Source: a virus. Taken from it: a stretch of DNA of 20,187 nucleotides. Within the stretch, counting starts at the first letter, position 1, and each line of letters begins with the position of its first letter. The translations under genes were made by a program, and so were the position numbers. The stretch covers positions 1 through 20,187 of IMG/VR virus record IMGVR_UViG_3300003324_000089; one strand, given 5' to 3'. Below are positions 3,072 through 20,187 of this stretch, one piece after another. Below the pieces are notes generated by a model, which had not been told where the DNA came from, did not search any database, and worked only from the letters and a program-made list of their open reading frames with translations.

Positions 3072-4469
3072 ATGCCAGCGCTAGCCAAAGCGTTTAACAT
3101 CTTCCGTAGCGCATCGTCTCCGTTCCCGGCATTTAGCGGCCGAAACGGTCAGATAGACCATCTAGACATCTCGACAGGTGGCCTCAGCGGCGAAGGCGCT
3201 CTTCGTGTCGCGGCAGTATGGATTGCTGTTACGGTCCTGGCCGATGAAATCGCGTCGCTCTCGTACCGCCTAATCAAGCGCGAGGACAAGTCTCGTACGC
3301 CGCAGGAGCCCGACAACCTGCGCCCTCTTTGGTCTGACGACCCGAACACGCTCGACACCAAATACTCTATCGACAATACAGAGACGATTTCGCTTATGCT
3401 TCACGGCGCGTATTACACGATGCTGGACTGGGCCGGCGACGCGCTCAAAGCACGCTGGCCGCAGCCGCCCGAGTCGTCAAGCATTGAGCTTTTAGACGAC
3501 GGCTCGCTTAAACTCTCGGTGCAAGGCAAAGGCGAGCTTTTCAACAAGCCGAACGCGAAGCCGCAGTTCTGCTACGCGCCGCTCTATACGCTGCCGGGTC
3601 AGATACAGCCAGTCTCACCCGTTCGCATGGCCGCCGACCTGGCCGGCCTCTCGCGCAACTACCAGCAAACCGCGAAGCGTTTGATGGACCGCGGCTTCAA
3701 CCCGTCCGCTGTCGTTATGCTTGAGGATATGATTGACGACGAAGAGGCACTTTCGCTTTCACGTCGTCTTGAGCGCTTGCATGGGGGCGCTGCGCGTGCT
3801 GGTGGCGTCGCAGTGCTCGGCGGTCGGGGTATCAAACTAGACAAGATGGGGATGTCACTTGCCGACGCCGAGTTTATCGCTCAGAACGAATACGTCTTTA
3901 AGCTTATGCTGGCCATGTGGCGAGTCCCGCCGACAGTGGCCGGCATGGTGGACAAGCCGTCAACCTGGGGTACGGGCGTTGCTGAGTTCTCGCGCGGCCT
4001 CGAACGCTTCACGCTTCGTCCTATCGTACAGCGACGCCAGGCAGCAATGCAGAAATGGATAACGCGGCAGGTCGACCCGAACCTGACGGTTCGTTACATC
4101 TTCGACTCGCTGCTGTCTGCTGCGCCTCGGGACCGTGCTGAGATACAGCGCCAGAACTTGATGGCCGGCCTTACTAGTGTCGAGCGTGTGCTGGCTCAGA
4201 ATGACGAGCCGCCGTTTGACGATGACGAGACGATTTACAGCCAGCTATCGATGGCGACAGACGACAACCGGGTCTTCCGTACTCAGCGCGACAGAGCCGC
4301 TGCCCTGGGTGAAGAGGCTAAGGCCGTAGTTCTTATGCACGCGGCTGGTGTGCCTCTTGACGAAGCATGGCAGTACGTGAACCCCGAAGCGCCTGCGCAG
4401 AATCTAGAGCCACCGCCTGCTGCGCCACCCCCGAACACGAACCCGACAGAGAGTGGGCAGACAGCTTAA
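3072..4469 (+). CDS. portal protein, HK97 family
   Basis: The 465-residue product forms the dodecameric ring at the unique capsid vertex through which DNA passes, and it is the docking site for terminase and then for the connector. Start at ATG 3072 is preferred over an upstream in-frame codon at 3009 because GGAAAGGA lies 6 bases upstream and the longer version would run through the leader hairpin. Family-like features are the helix ALRVAAVWIAVTVLADEIAS (about 43-62) followed by LSYRLIKR, the clip/stem area around LSRNYQQTAKRLMDRG (about 195-210), and the segment QNEYVFKLMLAMWRVPPTVAG (about 277-297), resembling the fgVPp..lG block of HK97 portals. The tail is Pro-rich and probably disordered (PEAPAQNLEPPPAAPPP). 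Its stop TAA abuts the next small ORF as TAAATG. Confidence 0.92.
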   Translation: MPALAKAFNIFRSASSPFPAFSGRNGQIDHLDISTGGLSGEGALRVAAVWIAVTVLADEIASLSYRLIKREDKSRTPQEPDNLRPLWSDDPNTLDTKYSIDNTETISLMLHGAYYTMLDWAGDALKARWPQPPESSSIELLDDGSLKLSVQGKGELFNKPNAKPQFCYAPLYTLPGQIQPVSPVRMAADLAGLSRNYQQTAKRLMDRGFNPSAVVMLEDMIDDEEALSLSRRLERLHGGAARAGGVAVLGGRGIKLDKMGMSLADAEFIAQNEYVFKLMLAMWRVPPTVAGMVDKPSTWGTGVAEFSRGLERFTLRPIVQRRQAAMQKWITRQVDPNLTVRYIFDSLLSAAPRDRAEIQRQNLMAGLTSVERVLAQNDEPPFDDDETIYSQLSMATDDNRVFRTQRDRAAALGEEAKAVVLMHAAGVPLDEAWQYVNPEAPAQNLEPPPAAPPPNTNPTESGQTA

Positions 4470-4643
4470 ATGCAGGAAGTTCTCCCCGCCGAGATACTTG
4501 CCGAGATTCGAGCGCTCTTAGACAGCGGCGCTACTGGGTGCGTGTCTATCGACGTTAAGCACGGCAAGGTTATGGGATGGAGATACCAGTCTAAAGCTGC
4601 CGCAAAAATAGCTGTTGACACACGCCCCAAATATGCGCTATAG
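4470..4643 (+). CDS. 57-aa protein, DUF2292/YezD-like
   Basis: The short frame begins directly after the portal stop (TAAATG). It predicts a helix EILAEIRALLDSG followed by a beta hairpin CVSIDVKHGKVMGWRY. Helix followed by a strand-HGKV-strand pattern is what I recall for DUF2292/YezD-like small proteins, whose function is unknown. No strong ribosome site precedes it, so translation would be coupled to portal. The gene's end contains the -35 and most of the -10 of the promoter at 4615, and its TAG overlaps the -10 box. It could alternatively be a chance frame, but codon use and adjacency favour a real gene. Confidence 0.55.
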   Translation: MQEVLPAEILAEIRALLDSGATGCVSIDVKHGKVMGWRYQSKAAAKIAVDTRPKYAL

Positions 4644-4644
4644 T
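4615..4644 (+). promoter_or_regulatory. strong putative sigma70 promoter upstream of protease
   Basis: TTGACA (4615-4620), an 18-base spacer and TATAGT (4639-4644) give 6/6 and 5/6 matches to the bacterial consensus. The -10 lies in TGCGCTATAGT, the element shared with the promoter at 2885. Predicted start is near 4651, producing a leader of about 92 bases before the protease ATG. It would boost protease and capsid transcription relative to terminase. Confidence 0.65.
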
Positions 4645-4665
4645 CACTTTCAGATTCGAATTAGA

Positions 4666-4711
4666 GGCGACTAGCGCAAGCCCGCACGACTGCGGCGACT
4701 ACGCCAAGCCC
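4666..4711 (+). repeat. imperfect 18-base direct repeat in protease leader
   Basis: GGCGACTAGCGCAAGCCC (4666-4683) recurs as GGCGACTACGCCAAGCCC (4694-4711). They differ at three positions and are offset by 28 bases. Both copies present the AAGCCC that pairs with the terminator 3' arm, which makes alternative pairing possible. Confidence 0.65.
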
Positions 4712-4741
4712 TCAAAGCTGACTCAGCTTAGGGGGCTTTTT
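4706..4741 (+). terminator. intrinsic terminator-like hairpin occluding the protease ribosome site
   Basis: The 5' arm 4706-4720 pairs with 4724-4738 around a 3-base loop: 15 positions, with one G-U pair and one A-A mismatch. A T-run (4737-4741) follows. The 3' arm holds AGGGGG (4730-4735), which is also the Shine-Dalgarno for the protease ATG at 4743. Folding would thus either end transcription or mask translation initiation of the protease. Confidence 0.6.
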
Positions 4742-4742
4742 C

Positions 4743-5489
4743 ATGCCTGACTTGCTTCGCAAAACGTTCTCTCCGTCGCTCGCCTTTAAGGCGGACACTC
4801 CCGGCGCTTTGTCGGTCGAGTTTGCCAGCCTAAACACGCTCGACCATGACGGCGACATTACGCTGCCAGGAGCGTTTGGTATCCAAGAGGTTCGTATCCA
4901 GTCCCATGGACACGATATGCGCTCCTGGACTATCGGCAAGGGCACAATCAAGGAGACGCAGGATAAGGCCATCATGGACGGCCTGCTAAACCTTGAGATG
5001 ACCGATGGGCAGAATGCTCATGCGTCTTTGAAGTTCGACCTCGAACATGGAACGCCACTCCAGGAGTGGTCGTACATTTTCGAGATTCGAGACGCCGACT
5101 TTGGCGAGCGAGACGGTCAGCAAGTCCGATTTCTCAAGAGCCTTAAGGTCTACAGCGTCGACCCGGTGTTTCTGGGTGCTGGAATCGGCACCCGAACTAC
5201 CAGCGTCAAGTCTGCCGGCCTGGGTTACATGGAGTTCTGCGAAGAAGTGGACGCATTTGTCGCAGAGCTCCAACAGCGCACCAAGTCACGTATTGAAGTG
5301 CGCGGCAAGGAGGGGCGAACCCTCTCGACGGCTAATGTCAACAGGTTGACGGCCATAGCGGAGTCGCTAATGACCGCTGCAAGAGACTTGAAGACGATGC
5401 TGGAAGATGCCGCGCCTAAGAACGTTGACGAGGAGCTTCTGAAAGCGCGCTTGGAGTTCGAGCGCATCAAGACCTACGCATTTCGTTAG
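4743..5489 (+). CDS. HK97-family prohead protease (S78)
   Basis: The 248-residue serine protease is expected to cleave the capsid delta domain and itself during head maturation. The fold core is seen as LSVEFASLNTLDHDGDITLP (about 23-42), SHGHD with the probable catalytic His (about 54-58), LLNLEMTDGQNA (about 81-92), and QEWSYIFEI with the probable nucleophile Ser110. LKVYSVDPVFLGAG closes the domain. The C-terminal 90 residues are helical and charged, fitting a prohead-associated tail. The start follows AGGGGG by 7 bases, and that site is buried in the leader hairpin. No good later start exists, so ATG 4743 is kept. It sits in the standard portal-protease-capsid order. Confidence 0.92.
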   Translation: MPDLLRKTFSPSLAFKADTPGALSVEFASLNTLDHDGDITLPGAFGIQEVRIQSHGHDMRSWTIGKGTIKETQDKAIMDGLLNLEMTDGQNAHASLKFDLEHGTPLQEWSYIFEIRDADFGERDGQQVRFLKSLKVYSVDPVFLGAGIGTRTTSVKSAGLGYMEFCEEVDAFVAELQQRTKSRIEVRGKEGRTLSTANVNRLTAIAESLMTAARDLKTMLEDAAPKNVDEELLKARLEFERIKTYAFR

Positions 5490-5503: not shown

Positions 5504-6820
5504 ATGCCGTTTGAAATTACCATCGAAAAGCCCAGCGACATCCAGGCGCTCGACCTCGAAAAGGCCCGCAAGGCCCTAGACGAGCGAGCAACGGTGCTGG
5601 AGAAGGTCTTTGCCGAAGCCGGCGAGGCCATGGACCACACGCTCGTGAAGTCACAGGACTTCAAGACGAGCAGCGAGATGGCGGTCTACATCCGCAAGAT
5701 GAACGAGGAGCTCTCCGAAATCGGCAAGCGCCGCGAGCTCCTGGACGTCGCGGACGTTGGCAGCACGCTCGTAAAGGGCATCCGTCTCGGCCTCGAAACG
5801 CCGGACCCGCGCATGTGGATGCCCGGCCAGAGCAACGGCCAGAAGGCCGCTTCACCGCTCCCCTGGGCGTACACACACTTGTACGAGGGCAAGGACGGCG
5901 AGCCGTCCCCCATCCTCAAGGCGCTGCGCAGCAAGCAGAACGCCGTGTTCGACCTCGAAGGCGAGGACCCGGGCGTGTTTCTCAGCGGCAAGGCCGTGTT
6001 TTCTACGACCGCCGGCTGGGCGCCGTTCTCGGTGCGTCTGCCCCGCGTCGTCCCGGACGAGCAACGCCCTATCGAAGTTACGGACGTCGTACCTCAGTTC
6101 CCGACCGGCATGGCCAGCATCGTCTACATGGAAGAGACGACGTTCACCAATGCCGCTGCTGAGCGTGCAGAGGCGGCGGCCTACCCGGAGGCCACGCTCG
6201 CGCTGACTGAGCGCACGATGCCCGTTCGTTCTATCGGCGTCTCGCTGCCCGTTACTGACGAGCAGCTAGAGGACGTCGAGGGCATCCGCGCGTACCTCAA
6301 CGGCCGGCTCGGTTTTATGGTCGACCAGCGCCTGGACTCGCAGATTATCGTAGGTGACGGCAACGCCCCGAACCTGCGCGGTACGCTCAACGTGGTCGGC
6401 ATCAACACCCAGGCGAAGGGCGCCGACAACGTTCCCGACGCTATCTACAAGGCGATGGACCTCGTCCGTGTGACGGGCCGCGCCGTGCCGAACGTCGTCA
6501 TCATCCACCCGAACGACTGGCAGGGCGTGCGCTTGCTCAAGACGGCCGACGGCGTTTACATCTGGGGCTCGCCGTCCGAGGCCGGCCCGGAGCGCATCTG
6601 GGGCGTCCCCGCGGTGCTCGCGTCGGGCATCACAGAGAACACCGCCGTTACGGGCGACTATCTGCGTTACTCCGGCCTCTTCATGCGCCGCGGCCTCCAG
6701 GTCGAAACTGGCTACGTCAACGATGACTTCCTCAAGGGCAAAGTCACGATTCGGGCCGGTCTTCGCTGCGCCATGGTTCACTTCCGCCCGGCCGCATTCT
6801 CGGCAGTAACGGGCATCTAG
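5504..6820 (+). CDS. major capsid protein, HK97 fold
   Basis: The 438-residue shell protein has a helical, charged N-terminal delta (scaffold-like) domain of roughly 100 residues (LEKARKALDERATVLEKVF..., MNEELSEIGKRRELLDVAD). That domain is probably removed by the preceding protease. The mature part includes the region around PQFPTGMASIVYMEETTFTN (E-loop/strand), PVTDEQLEDVEGIRAYLNGR (spine-helix area), DSQIIVGDGNAPNLRGTL, and VPNVVIIHPNDWQGVRLLK (A-domain). It closes with VTIRAGLRCAMVHFRPAAF, all typical of the HK97 family. AGGAAAGGA is a good ribosome site. Codons here are markedly C/G-ending (CTC, GTC, GGC, CGC) compared with the GCT/CTT-rich neighbours, as expected for the most expressed gene. 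The exact cleavage site is not determined. Confidence 0.95.
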   Translation: MPFEITIEKPSDIQALDLEKARKALDERATVLEKVFAEAGEAMDHTLVKSQDFKTSSEMAVYIRKMNEELSEIGKRRELLDVADVGSTLVKGIRLGLETPDPRMWMPGQSNGQKAASPLPWAYTHLYEGKDGEPSPILKALRSKQNAVFDLEGEDPGVFLSGKAVFSTTAGWAPFSVRLPRVVPDEQRPIEVTDVVPQFPTGMASIVYMEETTFTNAAAERAEAAAYPEATLALTERTMPVRSIGVSLPVTDEQLEDVEGIRAYLNGRLGFMVDQRLDSQIIVGDGNAPNLRGTLNVVGINTQAKGADNVPDAIYKAMDLVRVTGRAVPNVVIIHPNDWQGVRLLKTADGVYIWGSPSEAGPERIWGVPAVLASGITENTAVTGDYLRYSGLFMRRGLQVETGYVNDDFLKGKVTIRAGLRCAMVHFRPAAFSAVTGI

Positions 6821-16712: not shown

Positions 16713-18977
16713 ATGTACTACGGCAGCGTCGCATACGGACAATACTACCCAGCCCTAACGCTCCCGACTATCAATGAGCCGTCGGACGCGCAAGGGGTAC
16801 AGGCTGTTGTCCTCGACGTTGACGGAAACACGCGTCTCGGTCTGCTGCCTGTAATCAACACTGCTGACACTGAGGAGATGCTGGACCGCATCGGTAATTT
16901 CGAGCTTATTGTCCCAGCGTCGCACCCTGCCGTGACTCTTCTTGCGCAGCGTCGCCAGCTACTCTTGCGCAAGACAGGCGAGGGCTATTACTTCAAAGGT
17001 ATAATCGAGGAGATAGGCTGGGACGACAGCGACAAGACGACGCCTGGCACGGTAACTGTGCGCGGCTCTCAGCACTCGCGCGAGCTTGTACGGCCGAAAG
17101 CTCGTCTCGGCACGGAATACATCAACGTCGCGCCGTCGACCGTTATCGCTGCTGAGATAGCGAGACCGGCCACACCTTGGTCTATCTCGCTAATCGACGG
17201 CGGGCTAAGCAACGTAATGACGCGTTACGACGGCTCTAGCCCTATGCAAAACGTCCTAGGGCTCTCAGCGCAGCTTAACAGGCACGTTCGGTTTAGCCCG
17301 ACAGCACGAACGCTCGACTTCGGCTCGTTTGGCGAAGTGACTAGCACGCTGCTAATCAACCCCGAAGCGATGACGCCCACGCCGGGCTTGCCGCTTTACT
17401 CAAGCGTTGCGCTTATTAAAGCCGTGCGCGTCCTTGAGGAATCCTCGAAGCTCGTTAATCGCGTCTTTCCCCTGGGCGCAGGCGAAGCAAACAACCGCTT
17501 CGGCCTCGGCTCGAACCTTGTTAACGCTGTCTACACGACGCGTATAGCGCCTTACACCGTGCATTCGCTTCTGGGCCCTAAAGGCGATTGGCAATACTAC
17601 ATCGAAGACGCTGCTAGCCAGGCGTCATATGGCCTAGAGGAAGAGTTTCTTAACGTCAAAGACGTTGGCCCGCTAAGTGAGTCGGCCGGCGCGTTCGAGC
17701 TTGCGGCTAACGCGATTTATGACATCGCTTCGACGTATCTGGCGCGTAACTCGCAGCCGCAGACGACATACGAAGTTGACGTTGTGACGCTAACGCCGTG
17801 GTTCTCTGTTGGTAATGTCTTCCCTGTTCGCTATAAAGGCATCGTTACTGAGCCTACGGGCAAGCGCGTCTACAAGAGCATTAACGCTAACCTTGTCGTG
17901 CTCAGCAAGCGTCGCACAATCGGCCCCGACGGCATTACGCAATGGAAGCTCTTGCTTAGCACTGTTGCGAAGTGGCGTGAGACTGACCAGGAGCTTATAG
18001 TAGGCGCAATAGAAGACTTGGCTAATGTCAAGGTAAGTGTGAAGCCTTACACGCACACTCGAACGTTTGTCGGCGCTCGTCAGTCGATACAAAACAGCGG
18101 CAGCAAATGGGCTACGCTTCAAGTGCGCATTAGCGACAGGGTTCGCTATGTGCTTGATGCTCGTTTCAACCTACAGCTATTCCCGCTTAAGTCGAGCGTC
18201 ACGACAACTAGCGACCCCGGCAGCACCTCTAGCGGCGCGTCTAGTGTCAGTACGACGCCCTCTGGTGGTAGCAGCACCTCTGGCGCGTCAAGCACTTCGA
18301 CAACCCCTAGCGGTGGCGGCGCTACTTCGGGAGCGTCGTCTACCTCGACGTCCGGGACCGGCGGCCACCAGCACACGGTGCCTGCCGCTAACTTCGCGGG
18401 CTCGACTGCCGGCCCTAGTGGTACGGTGTTCGTGTCAACGTTCGGCCACGGACACACAGAGACCGGCGTATCTACGCTAGGTGATACGGTCTCAACGACT
18501 GTGCCTAACAGCACGCATACGCACTCTGCGCTTAGCGCTTCTGGTTCGTCTGTAAGCGCAACGACTTCGACCGAGAGCGCAGGCGCGCACTCGCACAACA
18601 TCGACCACACGCACTCGACGCCTGCGCACCAGCACAACATAGACCACACTCACAGCACGCCTAACCACAGCCACAACATCGACCACACGCACTCGATTAG
18701 TGGACACACTCACGCGCTCGTTTACGGCATCTTTGAGTCGACCTTGCCCGCAGCGCCGCAAGTGACTATCTGGAAGAATGGCGTGCAGATTTACGGGCCG
18801 ACTGACGCTAACGTTGTCGAGGCGGACTTTGCGCAATACTTCCAAGATGCTCAAGGCCGGCCTATCTGGGGCACGCATACGCTTGAGATTCGCAAGGCAG
18901 CTTCGTCCCCTGATACAATAGATGTCATACCCGACATTGAGCTTCTATTAGTCGCGACGGCTCTTGAGCCGAGTTAG
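16713..18977 (+). CDS. tail hub protein fused to His-rich fibre (Gp37-like)
   Basis: In this 754-residue protein, residues 1-480 resemble the ReqiPepy6 Gp37-like/endopeptidase-tail hub family: GVQAVVLDVDGNTRLGLLP, FELIVPASHPAVTLL, LLLRKTGEGYYFKGIIEEI, VTVRGSQHSRELVRPKARLG, and later TYEVDVVTLTPWFSVGNVFPV. Then comes a Ser/Thr/Gly/Pro linker with three 16-residue repeats (507-about 550). A fibre section with ten HxH motifs follows (HQH, HGH, HTH, HSH, ...), including three 13-residue repeats of the type AHSHNIDHTHSTP (625-663). A beta-rich tip (ALVYGIFESTLPAAPQVTIW... HTLEIRKAA) closes it. HxH in T4 long-tail-fibre gp37 binds iron in a trimeric needle, and a similar metal-filled needle is inferred here. 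Start uses AGGAG inside the previous gene. Confidence 0.8.
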   Translation: MYYGSVAYGQYYPALTLPTINEPSDAQGVQAVVLDVDGNTRLGLLPVINTADTEEMLDRIGNFELIVPASHPAVTLLAQRRQLLLRKTGEGYYFKGIIEEIGWDDSDKTTPGTVTVRGSQHSRELVRPKARLGTEYINVAPSTVIAAEIARPATPWSISLIDGGLSNVMTRYDGSSPMQNVLGLSAQLNRHVRFSPTARTLDFGSFGEVTSTLLINPEAMTPTPGLPLYSSVALIKAVRVLEESSKLVNRVFPLGAGEANNRFGLGSNLVNAVYTTRIAPYTVHSLLGPKGDWQYYIEDAASQASYGLEEEFLNVKDVGPLSESAGAFELAANAIYDIASTYLARNSQPQTTYEVDVVTLTPWFSVGNVFPVRYKGIVTEPTGKRVYKSINANLVVLSKRRTIGPDGITQWKLLLSTVAKWRETDQELIVGAIEDLANVKVSVKPYTHTRTFVGARQSIQNSGSKWATLQVRISDRVRYVLDARFNLQLFPLKSSVTTTSDPGSTSSGASSVSTTPSGGSSTSGASSTSTTPSGGGATSGASSTSTSGTGGHQHTVPAANFAGSTAGPSGTVFVSTFGHGHTETGVSTLGDTVSTTVPNSTHTHSALSASGSSVSATTSTESAGAHSHNIDHTHSTPAHQHNIDHTHSTPNHSHNIDHTHSISGHTHALVYGIFESTLPAAPQVTIWKNGVQIYGPTDANVVEADFAQYFQDAQGRPIWGTHTLEIRKAASSPDTIDVIPDIELLLVATALEPS
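18231..18362 (+). repeat. 48-base tandem repeat coding a Ser/Thr/Gly linker
   Basis: Two full units (18231-18278, 18279-18326) and a third diverging one (from 18327) encode SGASSVSTTPSGGSST, SGASSTSTTPSGGGAT and SGASSTSTSGTGG. Synonymous changes between units show the repeats are not very recent. The segment joins hub and fibre parts of the protein. Confidence 0.8.
18585..18701 (+). repeat. three 39-base repeats coding HxH-rich fibre units
   Basis: Units at 18585-18623, 18624-18662 and 18663-18701 encode AHSHNIDHTHSTP, AHQHNIDHTHSTP and NHSHNIDHTHSIS. Each carries two HxH motifs, and a fourth partial motif GHTHA follows. The unit length is 13 residues with conserved NIDHTH. Confidence 0.85.
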
Positions 18978-20035: not shown

Positions 20036-20187
20036 ATGGAGGCGGTATTCTACGAGGCTCTAAGGGCGGCCATTGTTGCCGGCATTTGCTATTGCTTGTA
20101 TCCGCCTAATATCACAAAGGCAGCGCGTGCAATTCGCGGGCACTTTGACAGGCTGGATGAACTGGAGGAGCGCATCGAAACTCATAT
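20036..20187 (+). CDS. membrane protein, 5' part (runs past window end)
   Basis: A strong TTAGGAGGG site precedes ATG 20036. The visible 50 residues have a short acidic start (MEAVFYEALR), one hydrophobic segment (AAIVAGICYCLYPP) and an amphipathic charged helix (FDRLDELEERIETH). A small membrane protein of this kind after tail genes may be a holin or lysis accessory. The C-terminus is outside the window, so the identity stays open. Confidence 0.6.
   Translation, partial: MEAVFYEALRAAIVAGICYCLYPPNITKAARAIRGHFDRLDELEERIETH

Follow-up and report, generated by a model that had tools for sequence, protein, structure and literature searches.

A candidate promoter-leader-terminator module ahead of the head protease gene of an uncultured phage and its recurrence in related lineages

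INTRODUCTION

Late gene expression in lambdoid phages is controlled by the arrangement pR'-6S RNA-tR' together with the antiterminator Q. Like pR'-tR', the module described here combines a constitutive-looking promoter, a short leader, and a terminator before late virion genes, and late read-through would be expected; in the DNA studied, the terminator is promoter proximal and stands ahead of late genes. Unlike its lambda counterpart, the module lies inside the late operon between portal and protease, two to four may occur per genome, its terminator arm is also the Shine-Dalgarno (SD) sequence of the next gene, and the related genomes were not seen to share a nonstructural gene that would be a candidate counterpart of Q and a possible antiterminator. 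Classical attenuators and leaders that sequester the SD sequence, of the trp or riboswitch type, likewise have a terminator in the 5' leader, alternative pairings, and an SD sequence within a stem, all of which the module shares, but no leader peptide or known ligand-binding fold was found in its leader, and both of its alternative folds keep the terminator.

Two further systems come close. The Com protein of phage Mu is a small zinc-ribbon protein; it binds RNA next to the structure that masks the mom SD sequence and is believed to open that structure, and its SELEX core is GAG(N)2CC (PMC6483171). The SAS/ESAS elements of cluster K mycobacteriophages are short regulatory units of unknown function that have a fixed sequence and a SigA-like promoter just upstream of gene starts and are repeated in one genome; their authors see little support for RNA hairpins (PMC3203893; PMC11373665). 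The module resembles SAS/ESAS as a promoter-bearing unit that is placed just before gene starts and repeated within one genome, but differs in that no terminator on the start codon has been described for SAS/ESAS. By analogy, it might be regarded as lambda pR'-tR' combined with mom masking and positioned like SAS/ESAS, defining features of each of these systems being absent or not evident here.

RESULTS

The portal-protease junction contains a promoter, a leader, and a terminator. The record, from an uncultured phage, is 40,789 bases long, and the window analyzed is its first 20,187 bases. Genes for TerL, portal, protease, capsid, and tail lie in the annotated part of the record, and DNA polymerase, helicase, and primase-like open reading frames (ORFs) (read by eye) in the remainder, nearly all on the plus strand. 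The features around the junction, all on the plus strand, are as follows.

3072 to 4469, +: portal protein gene, upstream of the module (Pfam Phage_portal, 2.6e-39; 53 to 58% identical to the portals of relatives)
4470 to 4643, +: putative 57-amino-acid ORF, similar to a 56-amino-acid ORF of L014; no family
4615 to 4620, +: -35 hexamer TTGACA
4639 to 4644, +: -10 hexamer TATAGT, spacer of 18
4651 to 4741, +: predicted leader RNA, ∼91 nucleotides (nt) if terminated, with its start placed ∼7 nt past the -10 hexamer; predicted fold of -35.3 kcal/mol (z = -3.1 versus shuffles)
4655 to 4664, +: TTCGAATTAG, degenerate counterpart of the AACCGAATAG box that other phages have at the 5' end of the RNA (weak, by-eye alignment)
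4669 to 4686, +: direct repeat copy 1, containing A1 (AAGCCC, 4678 to 4683); 14/18 identical to copy 2
4697 to 4714, +: direct repeat copy 2, containing A2 (AAGCCC, 4706 to 4711), which is the terminator 5' arm
4706 to 4741, +: predicted intrinsic terminator (stem-loop 4706 to 4738, T-run to 4741)
4730 to 4738, +: terminator 3' arm AGGGGGCTT with an SD-like stretch, GGGGG ending 7 nt before the ATG
4743 to 5489, +: head maturation (prohead) protease gene, the first after the module (tblastn to annotated capsid maturation proteases; weak phrog_80 match)
5504 to 6820, +: major capsid protein gene, directly past the protease (Pfam Phage_capsid, 5.2e-34)

The near-consensus promoter named in the original prediction, which had been made from the sequence alone, matches the sigma-70 consensus at 11 of 12 positions (4615 to 4644). 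It is the sole promoter at that level in the window and far above chance, with 0.08 expected per 20 kb of random sequence of the same dinucleotide makeup. The portal stop codon lies at 4467 to 4469, and that of the putative 57-amino-acid ORF falls within the -10 hexamer; the region may thus not be wholly noncoding, as a putative frame runs into the promoter, although there is no convincing open frame in the leader. No ATG, GTG, or TTG occurs between 4651 and 4706, which argues against a trp-type leader peptide. The stem with a T-run was confirmed as a hairpin reading AAGCCCTC-A-AAGCTG/ACT/CAGCTT-A-GGGGGCTT (4706 to 4738), a GC-rich stem with an 8-bp outer helix and a 6-bp inner helix, followed by five T residues, as is typical of an intrinsic terminator. 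A simple terminator scan omitted this stem, its rule allowing loops of 3 to 8 only. The protease SD sequence does lie in the 3' arm of the stem, as claimed: AGGGGG is the only SD-like stretch ahead of the ATG at 4743. No match was found for the window among 4,227 Rfam families (at the gathering threshold or, on the local stretch, at E values up to 1), which confirms that the leader belongs to no known RNA family there.

Farther downstream, a large ORF (16713 to 18974) has a serine/glycine/threonine-rich stretch followed by C-terminal repeated HTHS/HNIDHTH motifs and possibly encodes a metal-binding tail-tip protein. A short run of unknown bases (G000:C1, ∼20,190 to 20,220) is located about the window end and appears as X in the translation of the ORF starting at 20,073.

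Two alternative folds are possible but do not by themselves form a switch. Both AAGCCC copies (at 4678 and 4706) are complementary to GGGCTT at 4733, as originally noted; a second copy of at least 6 nt of the terminator 5' arm arises in 2% of shuffles (P = 0.02 for the window). The two small leader hairpins are present but weak, and the best fold joins them. In the relatives of the ClpP-type subgroup, the terminator 5' arm is also duplicated (GAGCGCCCC occurs twice, and L021 has several copies of ACGGCC), and the segment between the arm copies pairs with the terminator loop (GCAGCA:TGCTGC, GCGACA:TGTCGC, GCTGC:GCAGC, GCATCG:CGATGC, and TCACTC:GAGTGA). Among the five alignable leaders, two pairs of this inner helix have changed on both sides, and 97% of the cells are paired versus 26 to 54% in slid controls, small numbers in both respects; compensating changes were thus present in the inner helix. 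The repeated terminator 5' arm is a subgroup feature. Arm duplication as a general feature was rejected, most unrelated modules (see below) being without it. The energy gap between the two folds is ∼1 to 5 kcal/mol in most members and 7.5 kcal/mol in the window, where the ordinary terminator is favored. Mutually exclusive folds are real options in relatives with duplicated arms and a compensating inner helix, but in the window the alternative is much the weaker. Either predicted fold would terminate at one and the same T-run and occlude one and the same SD sequence. Exclusive folding alone would therefore not switch the gene, and a simple two-state switch is not supported.

The module recurs at the same junction in independent lineages. 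Searching IMG/VR and GTDB genomes with the capsid and the portal yielded relatives whose portals are 53 to 58% identical. In eight further lineages (L010, L014/L015, L016, L017/L018, L021, L096, L101, and L108), the order is portal, small ORF, promoter, leader, terminator, protease start, and capsid, with TTGACA-N16 to 18-TAnnnT, a leader of 60 to 130 nt, and a terminator that immediately adjoins the protease start codon; the window has the same parts in the same place. The leaders have diverged beyond alignment outside one subgroup. The protease itself is HK97-like in the window and L014 and ClpP-like (PF00574) in the other relatives with a module, and the start codon (ATG or TTG) stands directly past the T-run in the window, in L014, and in all seven ClpP-type phages. 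The head protease has thus been exchanged between the HK97 type (window and L014) and the ClpP type (L010, L016, L017, L021, L096, L101, and L108), while portal and capsid stayed homologous. In L096, the promoter is tandemly duplicated (4498 to 4557, TTGACA-N18-TAGCAT twice, 30 bases apart).

A detector requiring promoter, duplicated arm, and terminator matched the coding strands only at junction sites and at one second late site, and found nothing on 1.34 Mb of reverse strands. When the criteria were relaxed to promoter plus terminator, ten related genomes yielded 12 hits: 8 rows, representing 7 sites, fell at the junction, 4 fell at the second late site, and none fell elsewhere. This second late-region module, found in four related phages (L192 -15243, L196 +14284, L198 +19261, and L202 +2831), has a small zinc-ribbon-like ORF ahead of it, and the gene past it is weakly tail-chaperone-like in L202.

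The module is absent in the relatives L011, L019, L097, and L103 and in three cultured relatives, Sinorhizobium phages Aussie and StopSmel and Microcystis phage Mwe-Yong1, in which portal and protease are nearly adjacent. In the Mwe-Yong1 record (L003 and L007, MZ436628.1), the capsid gene is encoded on the opposite strand and at a great distance from the portal and protease genes. Two further cultured phages whose head genes are related, Gordonia phage Sidious and Pseudomonas phage Alize, have overlapping portal and protease genes, which leaves no room for a module. A blastn search with the window leader against phage records gave no match, and searches for close relatives by single protease or portal returned one distant relative or none. 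Among host genomes, a related portal was found only on one contig of a Dehalococcoidia metagenome-assembled genome (MAG), a 34-kb phage-like contig (L108; G001:C3). Because no related portal occurs in the other searched genomes of the class, the binning of this contig may be wrong.

Zinc-ribbon ORFs adjoin many modules. The ORF ending at the promoter is a small zinc-ribbon ORF in each of the seven ClpP-type phages, and the same holds for the second late sites and for several unrelated modules; across nine genomes, at least 7 of 35 zinc-ribbon ORFs end at a module, with 12 modules listed. These neighbors recall Mu, in which com overlaps the start of mom (NC_000929) and, as is predicted for the modules here, an SD-masking structure lies at the start of the target gene. 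Control might be translational as in com-mom, the zinc-ribbon protein encoded just upstream binding the leader, opening the SD-masking hairpin, and turning on the head protease, with the terminator-like appearance being secondary. Weak matches of two such ORFs to a PHROG translational regulator (PHROG 6417; L101, 2.2e-6; L096, 2.1e-4) point the same way, as does the SELEX core GAG(N)2CC, which occurs twice in the leaders of L010, L016, L096, and L101. Against this, none of the relatives' zinc-ribbon ORFs reaches the cutoff of Pfam PF10122 (Com), while Mu Com does; direct identity to Mu Com is weak; and the excess of the motif is due to four leaders that are related. The window module has neither an adjoining zinc-ribbon ORF nor the motif, and shares with L014 another small upstream ORF of no family. 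The modules also differ from com-mom in having a head protease or tail gene as target and an internal promoter and terminator. We consider com-mom-like control unlikely, and rejected the Com motif as a general feature, since it is found in few leaders only.

Modules with a 5' box occur in unrelated phages. In L010, L016, L021, and L096, the predicted RNA either has AACCGAAUAG at its very start or starts shortly past it. When IMG/VR was scanned for the pattern of promoter plus box, the full series of promoter, box, leader, and terminator turned up in many unrelated phages, with a start codon close to the T-run; these modules often begin with AACCGAAUA, and the box most often starts ∼6 nt past the -10 hexamer. 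Many members, not all, have the box: L014 is without it, and only the degenerate form is found in the window. Among the ORFs downstream of modules in unrelated phages, 14 of the 26 tested are head or packaging genes (proteases, portals, major head proteins, TerL, and a virion protein), the others including HNH and tail-like ORFs, versus 0 of 10 downstream of promoter plus box without a terminator; because the ORFs were hand-chosen, this is a comparison and not a blind test. Terminators followed the box at 21 of 107 sites versus 0 to 6 of 108 random places. Relative to other promoters of the same contigs, the full 10-mer box was enriched for terminators (10/27 versus 15/119; P = 0.005), and other 8-mer box sites were not (15/90; P = 0.26), so that the link between box and terminator is moderate. 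The idea that the box is merely a coding end (TE followed by a stop) was rejected: it is in frame in L016, L281, L302, L381, L398, and L406 and out of frame in L010, L021, L096, and L289.

One genome, G650, has four near-identical modules within 5.3 kb (L295, G650:C1:51758-57043, minus strand), two of which lack the box and keep a small hairpin at that place; the sequence of this small upstream hairpin differs and its pairing is kept (ACCG:CGGT, GACG:CGTC, and GGTA:TACC). When 16 member loci were compared with Rfam, the only matches were two type-P5 twister ribozymes (RF02684), both away from the module, on the minus strand of a contig that also carries a leader module (L400, 1318 to 1377 and 1810 to 1867).

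The pattern gave two matches in 400 Chloroflexota genomes (control, none), neither of them ahead of a phage gene as judged by eye. In one Chloroflexota genome (L418, G080:C140:9693-9741), the same promoter and AACCGAATAG stand ahead of an apparent TPP riboswitch and a terminator (by eye). The box may thus be a host-level feature of RNA 5' ends. In our view, the module has good support, and the box is a lead.

DISCUSSION

The layout at the portal-protease junction points, with slightly better than even confidence, to a gate ahead of the head operon whose default would be termination and masking and which would open once RNA polymerase or ribosomes pass it. RNA polymerase would start at the strong sigma-70 promoter, make the leader of ∼91 nt, and by default stop at the intrinsic terminator that adjoins the protease start codon; transcripts arriving from the portal operon upstream would encounter this terminator as well. 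Read-through RNA would stay poorly translated until the hairpin is opened, because the 3' arm of the hairpin is the ribosome-binding site of the protease. With termination and SD masking thus predicted to act at one hairpin, high expression of protease and capsid would need both read-through and hairpin opening, which would presumably come late in infection, via antitermination or an RNA-binding activity, or via ribosomes. Most likely, then, the module would keep expression of the head genes absent or low in two linked ways. The original prediction of a leader controlling protease and capsid by attenuation, ribosome masking, or both is supported by the comparison of independent lineages, in which the entire layout persists at this junction but the sequence does not; the simple two-state form of such control is not supported.

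The terminator could also be merely leaky and unregulated. A strong internal promoter would then boost the capsid genes, and the terminator would set a fixed leak and insulate them from upstream transcription. Capsid genes need more product than the portal gene, the terminator is strong and compact, and the cultured relatives manage without a module, all of which would suit plain tuning of expression. The order of promoter and then terminator argues against mere insulation, however, which would place the terminator before the promoter, and the terminator 3' arm is repeatedly coupled to a start codon, with multiple copies per genome, which suggests more than the setting of a leak. We hold plain tuning to be improbable. 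That the module is instead the gene for a small trans-acting phage RNA of 70 to 130 nt lying by chance before the protease, as had been offered alongside leader control, is very improbable: a predicted promoter and terminator of its own with no convincing open frame between them would fit, but the leader is not conserved where neighboring proteins are 53 to 60% identical (only the layout, the arm complementarity, and in many members a 5' box are kept, the box being degenerate in the window), and in every case the terminator sits on the start codon.

In a broader reading, which we hold to be unlikely, the modules would form a widespread and previously undescribed class of late-gene leaders, whose transcripts would start with 5'-AACCGAAUAG and end at an SD-masking terminator before head and tail genes. 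One trans factor common to them all, for example an RNA-binding zinc-ribbon protein encoded next to the module, would open these leaders; unrelated phages would then share one gate, with the window as a diverged member.

The module bears on how uncultured phages time head-gene expression with the host RNA polymerase. A compact module of promoter, terminator, and ribosome-site masking, kept despite changes of sequence and of protease family, offers a rule, open to testing, by which late operons could be located in phages from metagenomes. If it is true that adjacent zinc-ribbon proteins open the module, the com-mom principle would extend from a DNA modification gene to virion genes.
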